64,000 nt of DNA from Streptomyces caatingaensis (lineage in GTDB: Bacteria > Actinomycetota > Actinomycetes > Streptomycetales > Streptomycetaceae), in the NCBI RefSeq assembly GCF_001187435.1, contig NZ_LFXA01000017.1, positions 868,001 through 932,000 on the forward strand, in the 5' to 3' direction. Numbering within the stretch: the first letter of the stretch is position 1; each line of letters begins with the position of its first letter. The position numbers and the translations under genes are program-made. The notes beneath the pieces were generated by a model. The model had not been told where the DNA came from. It was given only the letters and a program-made list of their open reading frames with translations, and did no database searches. Positions 28,891 through 35,380 of the stretch are shown here, in pieces.

Positions 28891-30189
28891 CTACCGGGTT
28901 CCGGGGGGTCGGGGGAGATCGGGTCGGTCGCGGGGGCGGGTGATGAGCCAGGTGCCGCCGACGACGAGGAGGGCGAAGAGGGCGAGGCCGGCGCAGAGCT
29001 CGGCGATGAGCCAGAGGCGGTCGTGGAGGGAGAGGGCGCCGTTGAGGGTGATCTGGAGGGAGCCGACGGCGAAGGCGATGGCGGCGGTGAAGACGGCGAC
29101 GAGTTCGACGGCGCGGACGGCGTTGGCGCGGGCGGTTTCCTGGAGGGCGCGGTGGGCCTGGGACTGGCGTTCCTCGCGGGCGCGGAGGTCGGCCTCCAGG
29201 AGGTCCCAGCGGCGCTGGTGCTCGGCCTCGCGTTCGGCGAGGCGGCGGGTGTGTTCGGCGTCGAGCCGGGCGCGGGCCCGGGCGGCCAGGATGTCGTCGC
29301 GTCTGCGCAGGTACTGGCCCTGGAGGAGTTCGTGGCTGCCGCGGCTGCCGATGGCGGGGAGGAGGCGGAGGGCCCGGTCGACGGTGGACAGGGCGGCGTC
29401 GTGGTCGCCCGTCTCGTGCTGGCCGCAGGCCAGGCGGAAGCGGAACATGTGGTCGTGCGGGTGGGCGCGGACGGCTTCCGCCGCGCGGTCGCGGAGGAGG
29501 GCGCCCTGGCCGTCGAAGGGGGCGGCCATCTGGATGCCGTTGAGGCAGATGTCGATCACATGACGGGTGCGGCGCGGGGAGTTCCACGCCTCGTCCAGCA
29601 GCGCGGTGGCGTGTTCGGTGGTGAAGGCGCCGTGGGCGAAGGCCGCGAAGGAGCGCAGGGCGGTGAAGAGGGGGTCGCGCCGGTGCGGCCCGGCGGCGAG
29701 GGCGAGGAGGGAGGAGTCGAGGAACTGGTGGAGCTCCTCGGCCGCGAAGTTCGAGCGGAGCTTGCCCGCGTGGTAGAGCGTGGCGAAGTACGCGATGTCG
29801 CCGGCGGGCGCGTCGCGGCCGACGACGCCTTCGGCCGCCTCGGCGAGTTCGCGCGGTGACTCGACGGTGTCCTTGGTGATGAAGGCGTAGCCCAGGCTCC
29901 ACTTCTCGCGCACCTCGGTGCGGTGCGCGGCCGCGACGTGCGCGCCGAGCCAGGCGGCGCAGTCGGCGGCGGTGCGGATGCTCGGCAGGGCCAGGAAGCG
30001 CAGCCGCCAGTAGCGGTCGGCGCAGATCAGATACGGGTCGGCGGCGAAGTCGGCGGAGCGGACGTCGAAGGGCGGCTCGACGCCGTCCCGCAGGAGCGCT
30101 GCGGCGGCCTCCTCGCAGACCCGGTCCAGTTCGCGCGAGTCGGACGCCGGGACCGCGCCCAGCCGCGCCGTGACCGATGCGGAATCCAT
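28891..30189 (-). CDS. Predicted membrane protein with helical repeat and coiled-coil regions
   Basis: A 432-residue protein. Residues about 1-270 are alpha-helical and TPR-like (AAADCAAWLGAHVAAAHR, HDAALSTVDRALRLLPAIG). About 285-350 are a long charged helix (ARARLDAEHTRRLAEREAEHQRRWDLLEADLRAREERQ, described here in pieces). Two hydrophobic segments close the protein (VELVAVFTAAIAFAVGSL and LWLIAELCAGLALFALLVVG), so the N-terminal part is probably cytoplasmic. ATG at 30189 follows a GGGGGGAA site. It is divergent to the GT2 gene. Function unknown; the cytosolic sensor-plus-two-TM shape recalls membrane effectors, which is only a suggestion. Confidence 0.65.
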   Translation of the reverse strand: MDSASVTARLGAVPASDSRELDRVCEEAAAALLRDGVEPPFDVRSADFAADPYLICADRYWRLRFLALPSIRTAADCAAWLGAHVAAAHRTEVREKWSLGYAFITKDTVESPRELAEAAEGVVGRDAPAGDIAYFATLYHAGKLRSNFAAEELHQFLDSSLLALAAGPHRRDPLFTALRSFAAFAHGAFTTEHATALLDEAWNSPRRTRHVIDICLNGIQMAAPFDGQGALLRDRAAEAVRAHPHDHMFRFRLACGQHETGDHDAALSTVDRALRLLPAIGSRGSHELLQGQYLRRRDDILAARARARLDAEHTRRLAEREAEHQRRWDLLEADLRAREERQSQAHRALQETARANAVRAVELVAVFTAAIAFAVGSLQITLNGALSLHDRLWLIAELCAGLALFALLVVGGTWLITRPRDRPDLPRPPGTR

Positions 30190-30254
30190 GGTTCCCCCCA
30201 GGTTGCCGAATCGGCTCCTCCCTATCATGTTCACGTCGATCTCGGGGTCATATC

Positions 30255-31046: not shown

Positions 31047-31215
31047 CGGGCGGTCGGCCGCCCCGCTAGCGTGGGCGCCCGGTCGAGTCGGGGAGGGGCT
31101 GTGGATCTCGGGATGATCGGTGGGGACGCGGTGCGGGCCGCGGTGGAGGCGGCCGTGTCCGCCGCGTTGAGCGGGGCGTGCGGGGGAAGCGGGGCGCAGG
31201 GTCGTCGAGGGGCTG

Positions 31216-33543
31216 GTGGGGCTGCTGCGGCGTGGCGGGACGGGCGAGAGCGGGACGGGCGAGAGCGGGACGGGGGAGGCGGACAGGCTGCCGGTCACCG
31301 CCGACGAGCGGGCGCGCGTCGCCGAGGAGCTGCGGGCCCGGGCCCTGGCCGCTCCCGAGTACGCGGAGGCGCTGCTGCGGTGGGTGCGGGAGGCGGAGCT
31401 GCTGGGGGCGGGGACGGGCGTCCGGCCCGTACCGCGGATGCTCCCGGCGGAGAGCGGGGTGTTCACCGACCGGGGCGATGTCCTGGCCGGGCTGGAGGAG
31501 CTGCTGGCGGCGCCGCGGACGGGCGGGGCGGCCGTCGCGGTGATCAGCGGACCGGGCGGGATCGGCAAGTCCGCCACCGCCGTGCACTGCGGGCACCGGC
31601 TCGCGGAGCGCTTCCCGGACGGGCAGCTGTACGTGTCGCTCGGCGGCGGGACGACGCCGTCCGACGTGCTGGCCGAGCTGCTGGCCCAGCTCGGGGAGCC
31701 CGCCGCGACGGCCCCCGCCGACCTGGCGCGGCAGGGCAGCCGCTACCGCGAACTGACCGCCGGGCGGCGGCTGCTCGTCCTGCTCGACGACGCGCGGTCG
31801 GAGGCGCAGGTCAGACCGCTGGTCCCGGCCGCCGCCGGATCCCTGGTCCTGGTGACCGGCAGGCATCGGCTCGGCGGGCTGGCCGGCGACCCGGGGGCGC
31901 GGTTCTTCGCGCTGGACCCGCTGCGGGAGGACGACGCCGTCCTGCTCCTCGAACGGGTCGTGACGGCGGCCGGCCGGCGGCCCGCCGCTCGGGACGCGGC
32001 GGGTGCGGCGGGCGCGGCGGCCGTGGCGCGGGGGTGCGGCGGCGTGCCGCTGGCGCTCTGCGAGGCCGGTTCGGTGCTCGCCGTGCGCACCCACCTCAGC
32101 TGGGAGACGGTCGGCGCCAGGCTCTCCGGGCACGAGGGGAGCGAGGGGAGCGAGGGGCGTGAGGGGAGCGAGGGGCGTGAGGGGAGCGAGGGGCGTGAGG
32201 GCAGCATGGACGGCCGGGGTGGGCACGACGGGCAGGAGCTCGGGACCGGCGCCGTCCGGCGCGGGCACGACCTCTCGTACCGCGAGCTGAGTCCCGAAGC
32301 CGCGCGCCTCTACCGGCTGTTGGCCGGCTGGCCCTGGCCCGGCATCGGGCCCGGCGCGGCGGCGAAGGCGGCCCAGACCACCGAGGGCGCGGCCCGGGTG
32401 CTGCTGGAGGAGCTCGCCGGCGTGCACCTGCTGGAGGAGGTGGGGGAGGAGCGCTACCGCTTCCACGACCTCGTCCGCGAGCACGCCGAGCGGCGGGCGC
32501 GGGCGGACGAGCGCCCGGCGGACCGCGCCGCCGCCGTGCGCCGCGTGGCCGGCTGGTACCTGTCGTTCGCCGCGGCCGCCGACTTCCGTGTGATGCCGGG
32601 GCGTTGGCGGCTCGGACGCGCGTACGCGGGGCTCGCGCTGCCCGCGTCGCGCCCCCCTTCCGACGCGCGCGACGCGCTCTCCGCCCTGCGGCGCGAGCGG
32701 GAGGGCGTCGCGGCGGCGATCCGCGCCGCCGACGCCCATGGGGCGGACGAGCTGGTCTGCGGGCTGTGCGAGGCGAGTTGGGCGCTGCACCTGCGGCTGG
32801 GCTTCCACGACCAGTGGCTGGACGGCCACCGGCTCGGTATCGAGGCGGCCCGCCGCCTCGTGGAGGAGGGGACGGGCGACCCTCGCTTCCTGGGCCGGAT
32901 GCTCGTCCAGTCGGCCTTCGGCCACATGGGCCGCAGCGCGTGGGCCCGGGCCGAGGCCGCCCTGGACGAGGCGGTGGCGGCGGAGGAGGCGGCCGGGCAC
33001 CTGCGTGGCCTGGCCACCGCCGCCGAGGCGCGCGGGCTGCTGCGGCTGCGGCAGTGGCGGTGGGCGGCGGCCGGAGAGTGCTTCGTCGCGGCCCAGGGGT
33101 TCTGGCGGCGGATCCGGCCCGGCGGGGACGGCGAGGAGGACGTGCCGCGCGGGCTGGCGCTGCTGGAGGACCACATCGGCCGCGCCCTGCGCGGCGCGGG
33201 CCGCCACGGCGAGGCCGTCGCCCGGCTGAACACGGCCCTGGCCATGTTCCGCGCCCTCCCCGTACGGGACGTGTACAACGAGGGCCGCGTCTACATGAGC
33301 CTCGGCGAGACCCACCTCGACGCGGGCGATCCGGCGGCGGCCCGGGTCTGCCTCGACGACGCCCTCGCCGTGATGGACCGCGAGGGCGCGGAGCTCCAGC
33401 ACGCCGACGCGGCCGAGCTGCGCGCGTCCTGCGCGACGGGTCCGCAGGAGCGGACGTCCTTCCTGCGGAGGGCGGAGGAGCTGTACGCGAAGGGCGGGGA
33501 CGCGGCGGGCGCGGCCAGGGTGCGGGCCCGGCTGGAGGGGTAG
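31216..33543 (+). CDS. STAND-type NB-ARC ATPase with C-terminal helical repeats
   Basis: A 775-residue protein. NB-ARC core: P-loop SGPGGIGKSATA (about 113-124), Walker B RRLLVLLDDAR, sensor LVLVTGRHRLGG, GVPLALCEAG and YRFHDLVREHA as the MHD-like switch. TPR-like helices fill the C-terminal 280 residues. Such proteins are signalling switches (regulators or immune-type sensors). The true N-terminus is probably at GTG 31101 (MDLGMIGGDAV, matching the copy at 26587), but one extra G in the run at 31182-31186 puts that start out of frame with the rest. Without it the product would read through ...AGRRVVEGLVGLLRR. An internal 9-bp repeat (32134-32205) encodes a Gly/Glu/Ser linker. Confidence 0.8.
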   Translation: MGLLRRGGTGESGTGESGTGEADRLPVTADERARVAEELRARALAAPEYAEALLRWVREAELLGAGTGVRPVPRMLPAESGVFTDRGDVLAGLEELLAAPRTGGAAVAVISGPGGIGKSATAVHCGHRLAERFPDGQLYVSLGGGTTPSDVLAELLAQLGEPAATAPADLARQGSRYRELTAGRRLLVLLDDARSEAQVRPLVPAAAGSLVLVTGRHRLGGLAGDPGARFFALDPLREDDAVLLLERVVTAAGRRPAARDAAGAAGAAAVARGCGGVPLALCEAGSVLAVRTHLSWETVGARLSGHEGSEGSEGREGSEGREGSEGREGSMDGRGGHDGQELGTGAVRRGHDLSYRELSPEAARLYRLLAGWPWPGIGPGAAAKAAQTTEGAARVLLEELAGVHLLEEVGEERYRFHDLVREHAERRARADERPADRAAAVRRVAGWYLSFAAAADFRVMPGRWRLGRAYAGLALPASRPPSDARDALSALRREREGVAAAIRAADAHGADELVCGLCEASWALHLRLGFHDQWLDGHRLGIEAARRLVEEGTGDPRFLGRMLVQSAFGHMGRSAWARAEAALDEAVAAEEAAGHLRGLATAAEARGLLRLRQWRWAAAGECFVAAQGFWRRIRPGGDGEEDVPRGLALLEDHIGRALRGAGRHGEAVARLNTALAMFRALPVRDVYNEGRVYMSLGETHLDAGDPAAARVCLDDALAVMDREGAELQHADAAELRASCATGPQERTSFLRRAEELYAKGGDAAGAARVRARLEG
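32134..32205 (+). repeat. Eight 9-bp tandem repeats inside the STAND gene
   Basis: Units alternate between GAGGGGAGC and GAGGGGCGT (Glu-Gly-Ser / Glu-Gly-Arg). Nine bases keep the reading frame, so copy-number changes would alter only linker length between the ATPase module and the helical part. Confidence 0.85.
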
Positions 33544-33566: not shown

Positions 33567-35380
33567 CTACCGCGCCCCCGCGTCCGCACCCGCCGCGAGC
33601 CGCTCCACCCCCACCCGGTGCCGGGCGCGGCCCGTCACCACCACCAGCTCCGTGTCGCCGGGGCCGAGCGCCTTCCCGCCGCCGCCCGTCCAGGCGTACA
33701 CCGCCGACGCGTACGCCGCCGGGTCGCAGAGGCCGGGGCGGCCGTCCGGGCCGGGTGCGGCGGTCAGGCGCAGGAGGTCGCCGGCGCGGGTGCGGAGGGT
33801 GCAGCGGCCGGGGGCGGTGAGGTAGGCGGCGACGCCGCAGTGGGGGTGGCGGGTGAGCACCTCGGCGGTCCAGGCGGCGGGCGGGCCCAGCCGGGGGTCG
33901 TCCTCGGGGGCGGTGCGGACGATCACGTCGGCGAGGGTGAGGAGCCCGGCGTCGCGGGTGTCCTCGGCCACGGCCGTGTGCGCCTCCTCGGCCCAGGGGT
34001 CCTCGGGTTCGTACGGGGCGTCGGCGTAGCGGGCGAGGGTGACCTCGGGCGGGGCGGAGGGGCGGAGGCGGGTCAGGACCCGTACGGGCGCGGTCCGTTC
34101 GGCCGGCTCGTGGGCCGGCAGGGGGAGCGGTTCCAGCAGGGCGGGGACGCCGGCGGGCTCGGGCAGGTCCATGATCCGGTAGAAGGTGCGGCGCAGGAGT
34201 TCCGCCGAGCGGCCCGGCGCGGACGTCGTCCGCTCGGCCAACGCGGCGTAGCGCAGGGGGTCGTGGGTCTCGACGGCCCGGTCGATCTGGGCGCGCAGAT
34301 CGTCCTCGGGGCGCAACCTCGGTGCCGTGCGCCCGAGTTCGGCCACGGGCGAGTGCGGGTCGAGGTCGCCGGCGGGGAACGCGCCGAGGAGGACGGGCCT
34401 GCCGATCGCCGCCGCGTAGTACGTCACGCTGCCGTGGTCGCCCAGGACGCAGTCCGCCGCGACGAGGGCCTGCCGCCAGCCGCCGAGCGGATCGACGAGG
34501 GTGAGCCCGGCCCGGCGGGCGCGGTCCAGCCAGGCGCGGAGCTGCCCGGGGCCGTGCCCGTACCAGATGTTGGGGTGCAGGACGGCGGCGACGCGGTATT
34601 CGTCGGCGGGCAGTTCGGCCGTCAGCCGGGGGAGGAGACGGGGCAGGACGTCGTCGTCGCCGAAGAGCGAGCGGGGCGCCCAGGTCGAGTTGAGCAGGAC
34701 GAGCCGCTGTCCGGGGCCGACGCCGAGCGCGCGGCGGAAGCGGTCGCGGTGCGGGAGCGCGTCGAGGACGCGGTCGTAGCAGGGGTCGCCCGCGAGGACG
34801 GCGGTCGGGGCGGCCTCGGGGCAGCCCGCGCGGAGCCGTTCGAGCTGCTCGGGGTGGGAGAGGACGGTCGCGGTGGCGAGGGGCCGGCCGTCGTGGAGGA
34901 GCCACTCGGGAGACATCCCGAAGACGGGCGCGGGGGCGGGCGCGGAGCCGGACGTCCGGTGTCCGGTGTCCGGTGTCCGGTGTCCGGTGTCGCGAGTCTC
35001 TTATTGTAGCCAATGCCGTGCGAGAGGACGGCCAACTTCCCGGCGAAGGACTCCAGTTCACCGCCGTAGCTGGCGGACACCGCCAGGTCGACCGGCAGCC
35101 GCCGCGCCTGCTCCCACGGCACCACCGGCAGCCCGGCGTCCGCCAGCAGCTCGGGCACGCCCGCGAGGAACGGCGACGACCCGGTGCAGGTCGCGAGCGA
35201 CTGGACGCGCAGGTCCTCGGCGATCAGCGGCAGGACGTCCAGCAGGCGCGTGGCCGAGGTGACGTTGTGCACGACGAACAGCGCGTGCCGGCGCACCCGT
35301 CGCGTCACCCACCGCCCGGCGTCCGCACCGACCGGAACGCGAAGCTCCGCCCGTACCCCGTCCCGTATGCCGCCCGTCAC
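33567..35380 (-). pseudogene. GT-B fold transferase (CDP-glycerol-transferase-like), frame split by a 7-bp repeat
   Basis: Two adjoining frames form one gene. The first (start GTG 35380) encodes about 130 residues ending LSHGIGYNKRLA, then runs out of frame and stops at 34622. The second (33567 to at least 34916) continues with VFGMSPEWLLHDG, VLAGDPCYDRVL, LVLLNSTWAPRSLFG, HPNIWYGHG and GDHGSVTYYAAAIGRPVLLGAF, a GT-B/TagF-like nucleotide-sugar or CDP-alcohol transferase pattern. The break lies exactly in five copies of GTCCGGT (34954-34991). Six or three copies would restore one frame of about 600 residues. It may therefore be a switched-off phase-variable gene rather than a dead one. It is convergent with the STAND gene. 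Confidence 0.75.
34954..34991 (-). repeat. Five copies of a 7-bp tandem repeat in a coding sequence
   Basis: GTCCGGT is repeated five times plus a partial GTC. The period is not a multiple of three, so gain or loss of one unit changes the reading frame of the transferase gene. Frame arithmetic: the two halves are offset by 464 nt from start to the downstream Met, which is 2 modulo 3; +7 or -14 makes it 0. Confidence 0.92.

Follow-up and report, generated by a model that had tools for sequence, protein, structure and literature searches.

A tandem array that very probably switches the reading frame of a GT-B-type enzyme gene in Streptomyces

The gene, its array and its nearest relative

The window analysed here, 64,000 nucleotides of a Streptomyces caatingaensis contig, carries on its minus strand a gene (35380-33567) whose reading frame is broken by a perfect tandem array (Table 1). 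Tandem Repeats Finder (TRF) describes the array as GTCCGGT x 5.4 with 100% matches. The first part of the gene ends in LSHGIGYNKRLA just before the array, and TPDTGHRTPDTG follows. The second part, which contains VFGMSPEWLL and runs to the stop at 33567, is offset by 2 relative to the frame of the first; in this assembly, the first frame continues after the array as nonsense until a stop at 34622. The original prediction placed five GTCCGGT units exactly at the frame break, which is borne out by TRF and by the minus-strand frames. It also held that one more unit, or two fewer, would yield one continuous protein, and this arithmetic is correct since the two parts are offset by 2.

Table 1. Features of the locus, in positions of the window
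Feature	Position	Strand	Description and basis
Heptanucleotide array, probable frame switch	34954..34991	-	GTCCGGT on the + strand, ACACCGG units in the coding direction; TRF
First part of the gene	34992..35380	-	GTG start at 35380; N-terminal half of the GT-B fold (predicted) up to the invariant HGxGYxK motif; ORF, frames and conserved columns
Second part of the gene	33567..34953	-	Rest of the GT-B fold and C-terminal domain; other frame than the first part; listed ORF from ATG at 34916
OFF-state reading frame, 252 aa	34622..35380	-	First part, array and wrong-frame 3' extension to the stop
Convergent partner STAND ATPase gene	31216..33543	+	NB-ARC and TPR by Pfam

A search of the organism's own genome (7.06 Mb, 18 contigs) with a three-unit pattern, allowing at most 1 mismatch, matched the array sequence at a single place. 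An 800-kb sample of the same genome contains four non-triplet arrays of at least 3 copies, with periods of 7 (3.7 copies), 8, 17 and 19. The nearest relative of the gene, from Streptomyces sp. AV19 (L034), is 89% identical, has the same unit and is a natural ON copy of 594 aa, ON and OFF denoting copies whose two parts are in or out of frame. The linkers of the two copies differ by 13 bp, which is no whole-unit difference. Their partner genes differ by one base near 31179 (31170-31216), placing the homologous start in another frame; the listed partner ORF begins at 31216. Because the array is short, the difference from L034 is not one of whole units and the partner has this one-base frame difference, this copy, if considered by itself, might be fixed in the OFF state.

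Arrays and reading frames among orthologues

We searched genomes of the genus with the second part of the gene as query (E <= 1e-90). The gene was found in 87 of 392 sampled Streptomyces genomes, about a fifth, and is therefore accessory. Of 100 confirmed loci, 80 named ones were kept, and where identical loci came from two genome collections (19 pairs) one of each pair was kept. Two motif anchors flanking the array located 126 distinct loci and left 21 without a location, several of which have no upstream sequence. At least five of these 21 have period-7 arrays (L018, L019, L114, L164 and L104), and a sixth, L163, reads in frame with no clear array.

Examination of related strains had been proposed with the original prediction, and the comparison shows that the position of the array is constant: 107 of the 126 located orthologues have a perfect array of at least 3 copies at the same codon, with copy numbers from 3.3 to 33.7 (median 6.3). 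The main unit is 7 bp in 94 of these arrays, 10 bp in 9 and 8 bp in 4. There are 29 unit sequences, the most frequent being AGCCGGG (28 loci), ACACCGG (25), AACACCC (8) and ACGAGTC (4). When only evenly drawn genomes are considered, arrays are present in 61 of 75 located loci, with 24 of the 61 OFF and 12 of 87 loci lacking a location. Most copies thus keep a frame-switching array while the unit sequence has repeatedly been replaced. This amounts to a natural experiment, and it suggests that selection favors the capacity for switching and not the repeat sequence. In three loci (L078, L076 and L092) the array is mixed, passing partway from one unit to a variant of it, which suggests a route by which unit identity turns over.

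The comparison also shows a rule of unit length. Unit lengths divisible by 3 are absent from the main arrays (0/107) but occur in 11 of 16 background arrays (Fisher p 3e-12; the length thresholds of the site scan and the flank scan differ slightly, 14 vs 21 bp). The background arrays came from 680,120 bp of DNA flanking the loci, scanned for perfect arrays of at least 3 copies and at least 21 bp with periods of 4-20, and include two of period 7 and two of period 8. At 130 examined sites there are 110 period-7, 4 period-8 and 9 period-10 arrays, one locus being able to hold two; one period-9 and one period-13 array also lie at the array site, neither of them the main array of a locus. None of the 29 units brings in a stop codon in any frame, which adds little since the same is expected for 93% of random 7-base units of that composition.

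Other perfect non-triplet arrays were seen nearby: TGCCCAT x 9.9 in the left flank of L166, GTCAGTGG x 4 in the left flank of L055 and TCGGTCCG x 6.6 in the right flank of L091. These are possible further switches.

Both ON and OFF copies are common among array-bearing loci. Of the 107, 55 keep the frame and 52 lose it, 34 with one offset and 18 with the other, compared with 18 in frame and one out of frame among 19 array-free loci (Fisher p 0.00026); the sole array-free OFF copy, L169, has a premature stop too. ON/OFF state is unrelated to phylogeny: on a FastTree tree of 125 rows it accounts for 35 changes among 106 rows, the mean for shuffled states being 34.9, with 109 of 200 shuffles at or below the observed value. 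On the same tree, array presence accounts for 13 changes and unit identity for 40. Arrays of up to 45 bp are ON in 33 of 51 loci and OFF in 18, and those longer than 45 bp are ON in 22 of 56, which is indistinguishable from the 1/3 expected under free frame drift. These proportions would fit slippage that rises with array length, combined with some selection for the ON state.

Could the OFF copies be ordinary pseudogenes, each broken by a chance expansion of the array and now decaying? The window copy is out of frame, its partner is possibly frameshifted, and a few orthologues are clearly broken, by an insertion (L018), by stops (L063 and L169) or by partial loss of the first part (L104, L114 and L164). 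However, about half of the array carriers are out of frame, and L063 is the only one of these array-bearing OFF copies with a stop in the 380 codons checked after the array. Overall, these downstream codons are open in 73 of 73 in-frame loci, 34 of 34 frame-1 loci and 17 of 19 frame-2 loci (L168 being shorter). Moreover, OFF copies have dN/dS values as low as those of ON copies: after the array, the medians are 0.252 for ON-ON pairs (26 pairs), 0.237 for OFF-OFF pairs (17), 0.232 for mixed pairs (52) and 0.182 for pairs with an array-free member (39). Since the pairs overlap and the Nei-Gojobori method is crude at such G+C, we use only the likeness of these values, which indicates that selection persists downstream of the array and that this part stays under purifying selection in OFF copies, a statement that applies to the family and not to the window copy alone. 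Arrays are also kept at one codon while their units change. We therefore consider the pseudogene explanation very unlikely.

Two kinds of structure were seen at the broken copies. The gene of L018 is split by a transposase ORF, insertion-sequence-like in character, that sits immediately ahead of the array. In L104, L114 and L164, the shortened first half adjoins the array, as if deletions had ended in it.

Copy number has changed within a species, as is seen in two strains of Streptomyces anthocyanicus, NBC_01372 and NBC 01668. Of their two sequences, NZ_CP109572 has 9 units and is ON, with one annotated gene of 1770 nt, and NZ_CP109229 has 17 units and is OFF, with an annotation that covers the second part only. 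The two copies, located on linear megaplasmids, are identical at 1824 of 1825 aligned bases, and differ by the one substitution and by one 56-base gap, which is exactly 8 units; two long matches around the gene are 99.3 and 99.6% identical. Opposite states with a difference of one unit were found in four close species pairs, L036/L037 and L048/L120 with 10-bp units and L027/L029 and L022/L069 with 7-bp units. Two further pairs differ by whole units and are both ON (L008/L010 by 63 bp and L076/L107 by 21 bp).

It is also conceivable that the array is a neutral, expandable linker in which only loop length varies, OFF copies being rare accidents or assembly errors. The loop at the array site tolerates 10 to 83 residues among orthologues and is poorly ordered in the structural model, and misassembly of long arrays is possible. 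Linker length differs in 17 of 24 non-overlapping close pairs; the difference is divisible by 3 in 8 of them and not in the other 9. Eleven of the 17 differences do not amount to whole units, such that other linker changes are common. Outside the linker, 18 of 21 indels have lengths divisible by 3, the three exceptions all coming from one pair, L080/L168. Against a neutral linker stand the avoidance of unit lengths that are multiples of 3, which background arrays do not share, the four close pairs that are one unit apart with opposite states, and the OFF state of 18 of the 51 arrays of up to 45 bp. An array of that length fits inside one ordinary sequencing read. On balance, we regard the linker explanation as quite unlikely.

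Programmed ribosomal frameshifting on the array, by which some full-length protein would be made even in the "OFF" frame, is compatible with the sequence alone. However, both offsets occur among the array loci and the array is built from 29 different units, so no common slippery site is evident, and we judge this mechanism highly improbable. The array could also be a DNA element without any translational role, such as a set of regulator-binding heptamers (SARP boxes); SARP-type regulators bind heptameric direct repeats in promoters, according to the accessible parts of PMC5930380. Here, the array lies about 390 bp inside the coding region, and its units differ widely, with periods of 4, 7, 8 and 10 all occurring, a diversity that a binding site would hardly allow. 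We rejected SARP-binding heptamers for these reasons, and a DNA element of any such kind seems to us extremely unlikely.

Arrays at the same codon, a mixture of ON and OFF copies that does not follow the tree, selection in OFF copies and the S. anthocyanicus pair together lead us to consider it highly likely that the gene family is a frame-switching contingency locus; this estimate covers the switch and not the substrate of the enzyme. Characteristics of such a locus are found here: a repeat unit in the coding region whose length is not a multiple of 3, frame-switching differences in copy number between close isolates and, for the family, selection while OFF. As repeat units are gained or lost, the gene very probably turns on and off. 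Phase variation by a change in copy number, raised as a possibility in the original prediction, is strongly supported by comparison, including an ON/OFF pair 8 units apart. We infer that switching is reversible and frequent within a colony. We propose the following mechanism. In a GT-B enzyme, the HGxGYxK motif is directly followed by a disordered loop, and the array, with a unit length that is not a multiple of 3, lies in that loop. Units are gained or lost, most likely by replication slippage, and such changes would bring the remaining three quarters of the protein, downstream of the array, into frame or put it out of frame. The population would then be mixed, with ON cells making the full enzyme of about 590 aa and OFF cells a truncated N-terminal part with a nonsense tail.

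The predicted enzyme and its convergent partner

The original prediction called the product a glycosyl/CDP-glycerol transferase. The L034 protein was modelled with AlphaFold2 from 52 rows, giving a mean pLDDT of 86.5; the lowest inner confidence, at residues 130-143, coincides with the array region. Residues 24-409 match GT-B structures, and the best Foldseek match is TagF (3l7j, E 3.8e-10). Structural alignment with TagF by VIA gives Z 20.8 over 335 residues with an rmsd of 3.9 and about 11-14% identity, and UDP-GlcNAc 2-epimerases score slightly higher (4zht, Z 22.8). Structure matches barely extend into the C-terminal part (about 430-594). Right before the array lie the invariant residues of the HGxGYxK motif (H117, G118, G120, Y121 and K123), which may be the counterpart of the catalytic histidine motif of TagF.

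The product is thus modelled as a protein with a GT-B fold resembling TagF and UDP-GlcNAc 2-epimerases. The fold of the TagF/TarL family is present, yet it is common to many other families. No Pfam-A match naming CDP-glycerol/ribitol phosphotransferases was obtained for the two window parts (to E 1) or for L034 (to E 10). NCBIfam, searched with the two parts to E 1, yielded no match, and searching the PDB by sequence gave nothing firm on function. The sole Pfam match, SH3_CYT4, is below its cut-off and was set aside. The predicted activity therefore holds at the level of fold, with TagF and UDP-GlcNAc 2-epimerase as the matches, and has no Pfam family of that kind behind it. The protein shares the GT-B fold of the teichoic acid polymerases TagF and TarL (3l7j), but it differs from them in its low identity, the lack of a Pfam match, the equally good match to UDP-GlcNAc 2-epimerases and an extra C-terminal domain.

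The original prediction lacks a conserved neighbor, a STAND ATPase gene that lies tail-to-tail with the enzyme gene, 23 nt away in the window. Of 57 loci that span 7 kb or more, 55 contain this partner. Other neighbors are rare in the 57 loci (peptidase 3, TetR 3, MFS 1, GT2 1 and the gene at 28891-30234 in none), and no polymer-synthesis gene is conserved beside the gene among the neighbors tested there. Across all 132 loci examined, 117 have a STAND match, which is convergent in 116 of the 117 at a median distance of 3 nt. Most of the 15 loci without a match have no downstream sequence; in four of them (L016, L026, L079 and L190), however, over 1.3 kb was available.

A model of the partner from L082 (pLDDT 90.0) matches 6mfv (E 4e-10), Apaf-1 and Avs3 in Foldseek. 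Like these STAND ATPases with TPR, the partner has NB-ARC and TPR; unlike them, it has a short, helical N-terminus and its Walker A lysine is often replaced. At the position of that lysine, 10 of 34 aligned partners have K and 24 have another residue (T, S, V or C), 14 of the replacements having been read by regex, which missed 12 of the 34 rows, and 10 by eye. Given this frequency of replacement, many partners may not hydrolyse ATP. No break of the partner is tied to the OFF state among loci with the partner start inside the locus: it is intact in 25 of 26 ON and 30 of 31 OFF loci, a further 60 loci being cut by the locus end. Both broken partners come from S. anthocyanicus, where they accompany the ON copy and the OFF copy of the pair described above. 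Within the window partner gene, an 18-bp array (32143-32201) encodes an in-frame repeat of EGSEGR type.

What might this pair of genes do? No relative was found in phage records, and none was confirmed among 25 pattern matches in viral contigs. PADLOC 2.0.0, which presumably includes Pgl and BREX among its systems, gave no family at E 0.01 for the L034 enzyme or the window partner protein. With less certainty than for the switch, we infer that the enzyme may transfer a sugar or sugar-phosphate to a cell-surface glycopolymer, such that switching would diversify the surface and might, for instance, counter phages. What we suggest on the substrate, on a role at the surface and on phages is guesswork that takes the modelled fold as its guide. 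A further and rather doubtful possibility is that the two genes form an unnamed, widespread actinobacterial immune-like module, in which a GT-B enzyme gambled by the array is paired with a tail-to-tail STAND ATPase that senses the product of the enzyme, its absence or its subversion by phage. Selection would then act on unit length modulo 3, leaving the letters of the unit free to turn over. The locus points to an uncharacterised STAND-linked module, and the cell surface or phages may be concerned.

Known switches and distribution beyond Streptomyces

Repeat-driven phase variation has mostly been studied in host-adapted pathogens. For Streptomyces, one case of phase variation by repeats, the Pgl G-tract, was found among open-licence PubMed Central papers. 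The accessible parts of PMC4365076 describe slipped-strand switching by a G-tract in pglX, a gene of the Pgl phage-resistance system of Streptomyces coelicolor. Hence, the original prediction was wrong, as regards the mechanism, that such switching had not been described for Streptomyces. The likeness of pglX lies in slipped-strand phase variation in Streptomyces that is tied to phage resistance; it differs, in the same parts of PMC4365076, in that a G-tract lies in a DNA methyltransferase gene, so that both protein and repeat are others.

A heptanucleotide repeat in a coding region is known from neuO (poly-Psi) of the CUS-3 prophage in Escherichia coli K1, a surface-sugar enzyme gene subject to slipped-strand mispairing with an effect on phage resistance, as described in the accessible parts of PMC9659370. 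The present gene resembles neuO in the type and coding-region location of the repeat; on/off switching by slipped-strand mispairing is that of neuO (PMC9659370, same parts), and slippage is presumed here. In contrast, neuO is an E. coli prophage acetyltransferase gene (PMC9659370, same parts), whereas the present family encodes a predicted GT-B enzyme with a mid-protein array, 29 units and a STAND ATPase partner, in actinobacterial genomes and linear megaplasmids.

No report of the present locus was found in open-licence PubMed Central papers. No such locus appears in the accessible parts of a frame-transition survey (PMC3711429), a review of bacterial repeats (PMC7015867), a low-complexity survey (PMC6821194), a phase-variation paper (PMC6625227) or a restriction review (PMC12707154). 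Repeat switching is known from other genes, and its use in the present gene seems new. The family offers a handle on clonal heterogeneity in Streptomyces, and cautions that OFF states lie behind some gene calls listed as "hypothetical" or truncated.

The arrays extend beyond the genus. In other genera of the family and in two other families, 27 of 30 loci, chosen for the HGxGY motif, have arrays, with period 7 in 22, period 8 in 3 and period 4 in 2 (AGCC x 13.8 and x 18.8). One of the three array-free loci, L209, is N-masked, and no array was seen in an Embleya locus (L190). Among paralogues, no array was seen in 9 of 9 loci read by eye from a clade with HGxGF(Q/H)K.VPDSR, nor in those of GF and GYNR/GYLK type (L232, L233, L236, L237, L239-L242 and L248). 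A second paralogue clade, of PHGAGYNK ... FGLT-EEW type, has arrays in L172, L176, L177, L178 and L220, and none was seen in L219. Some distant paralogues also have a STAND neighbor.
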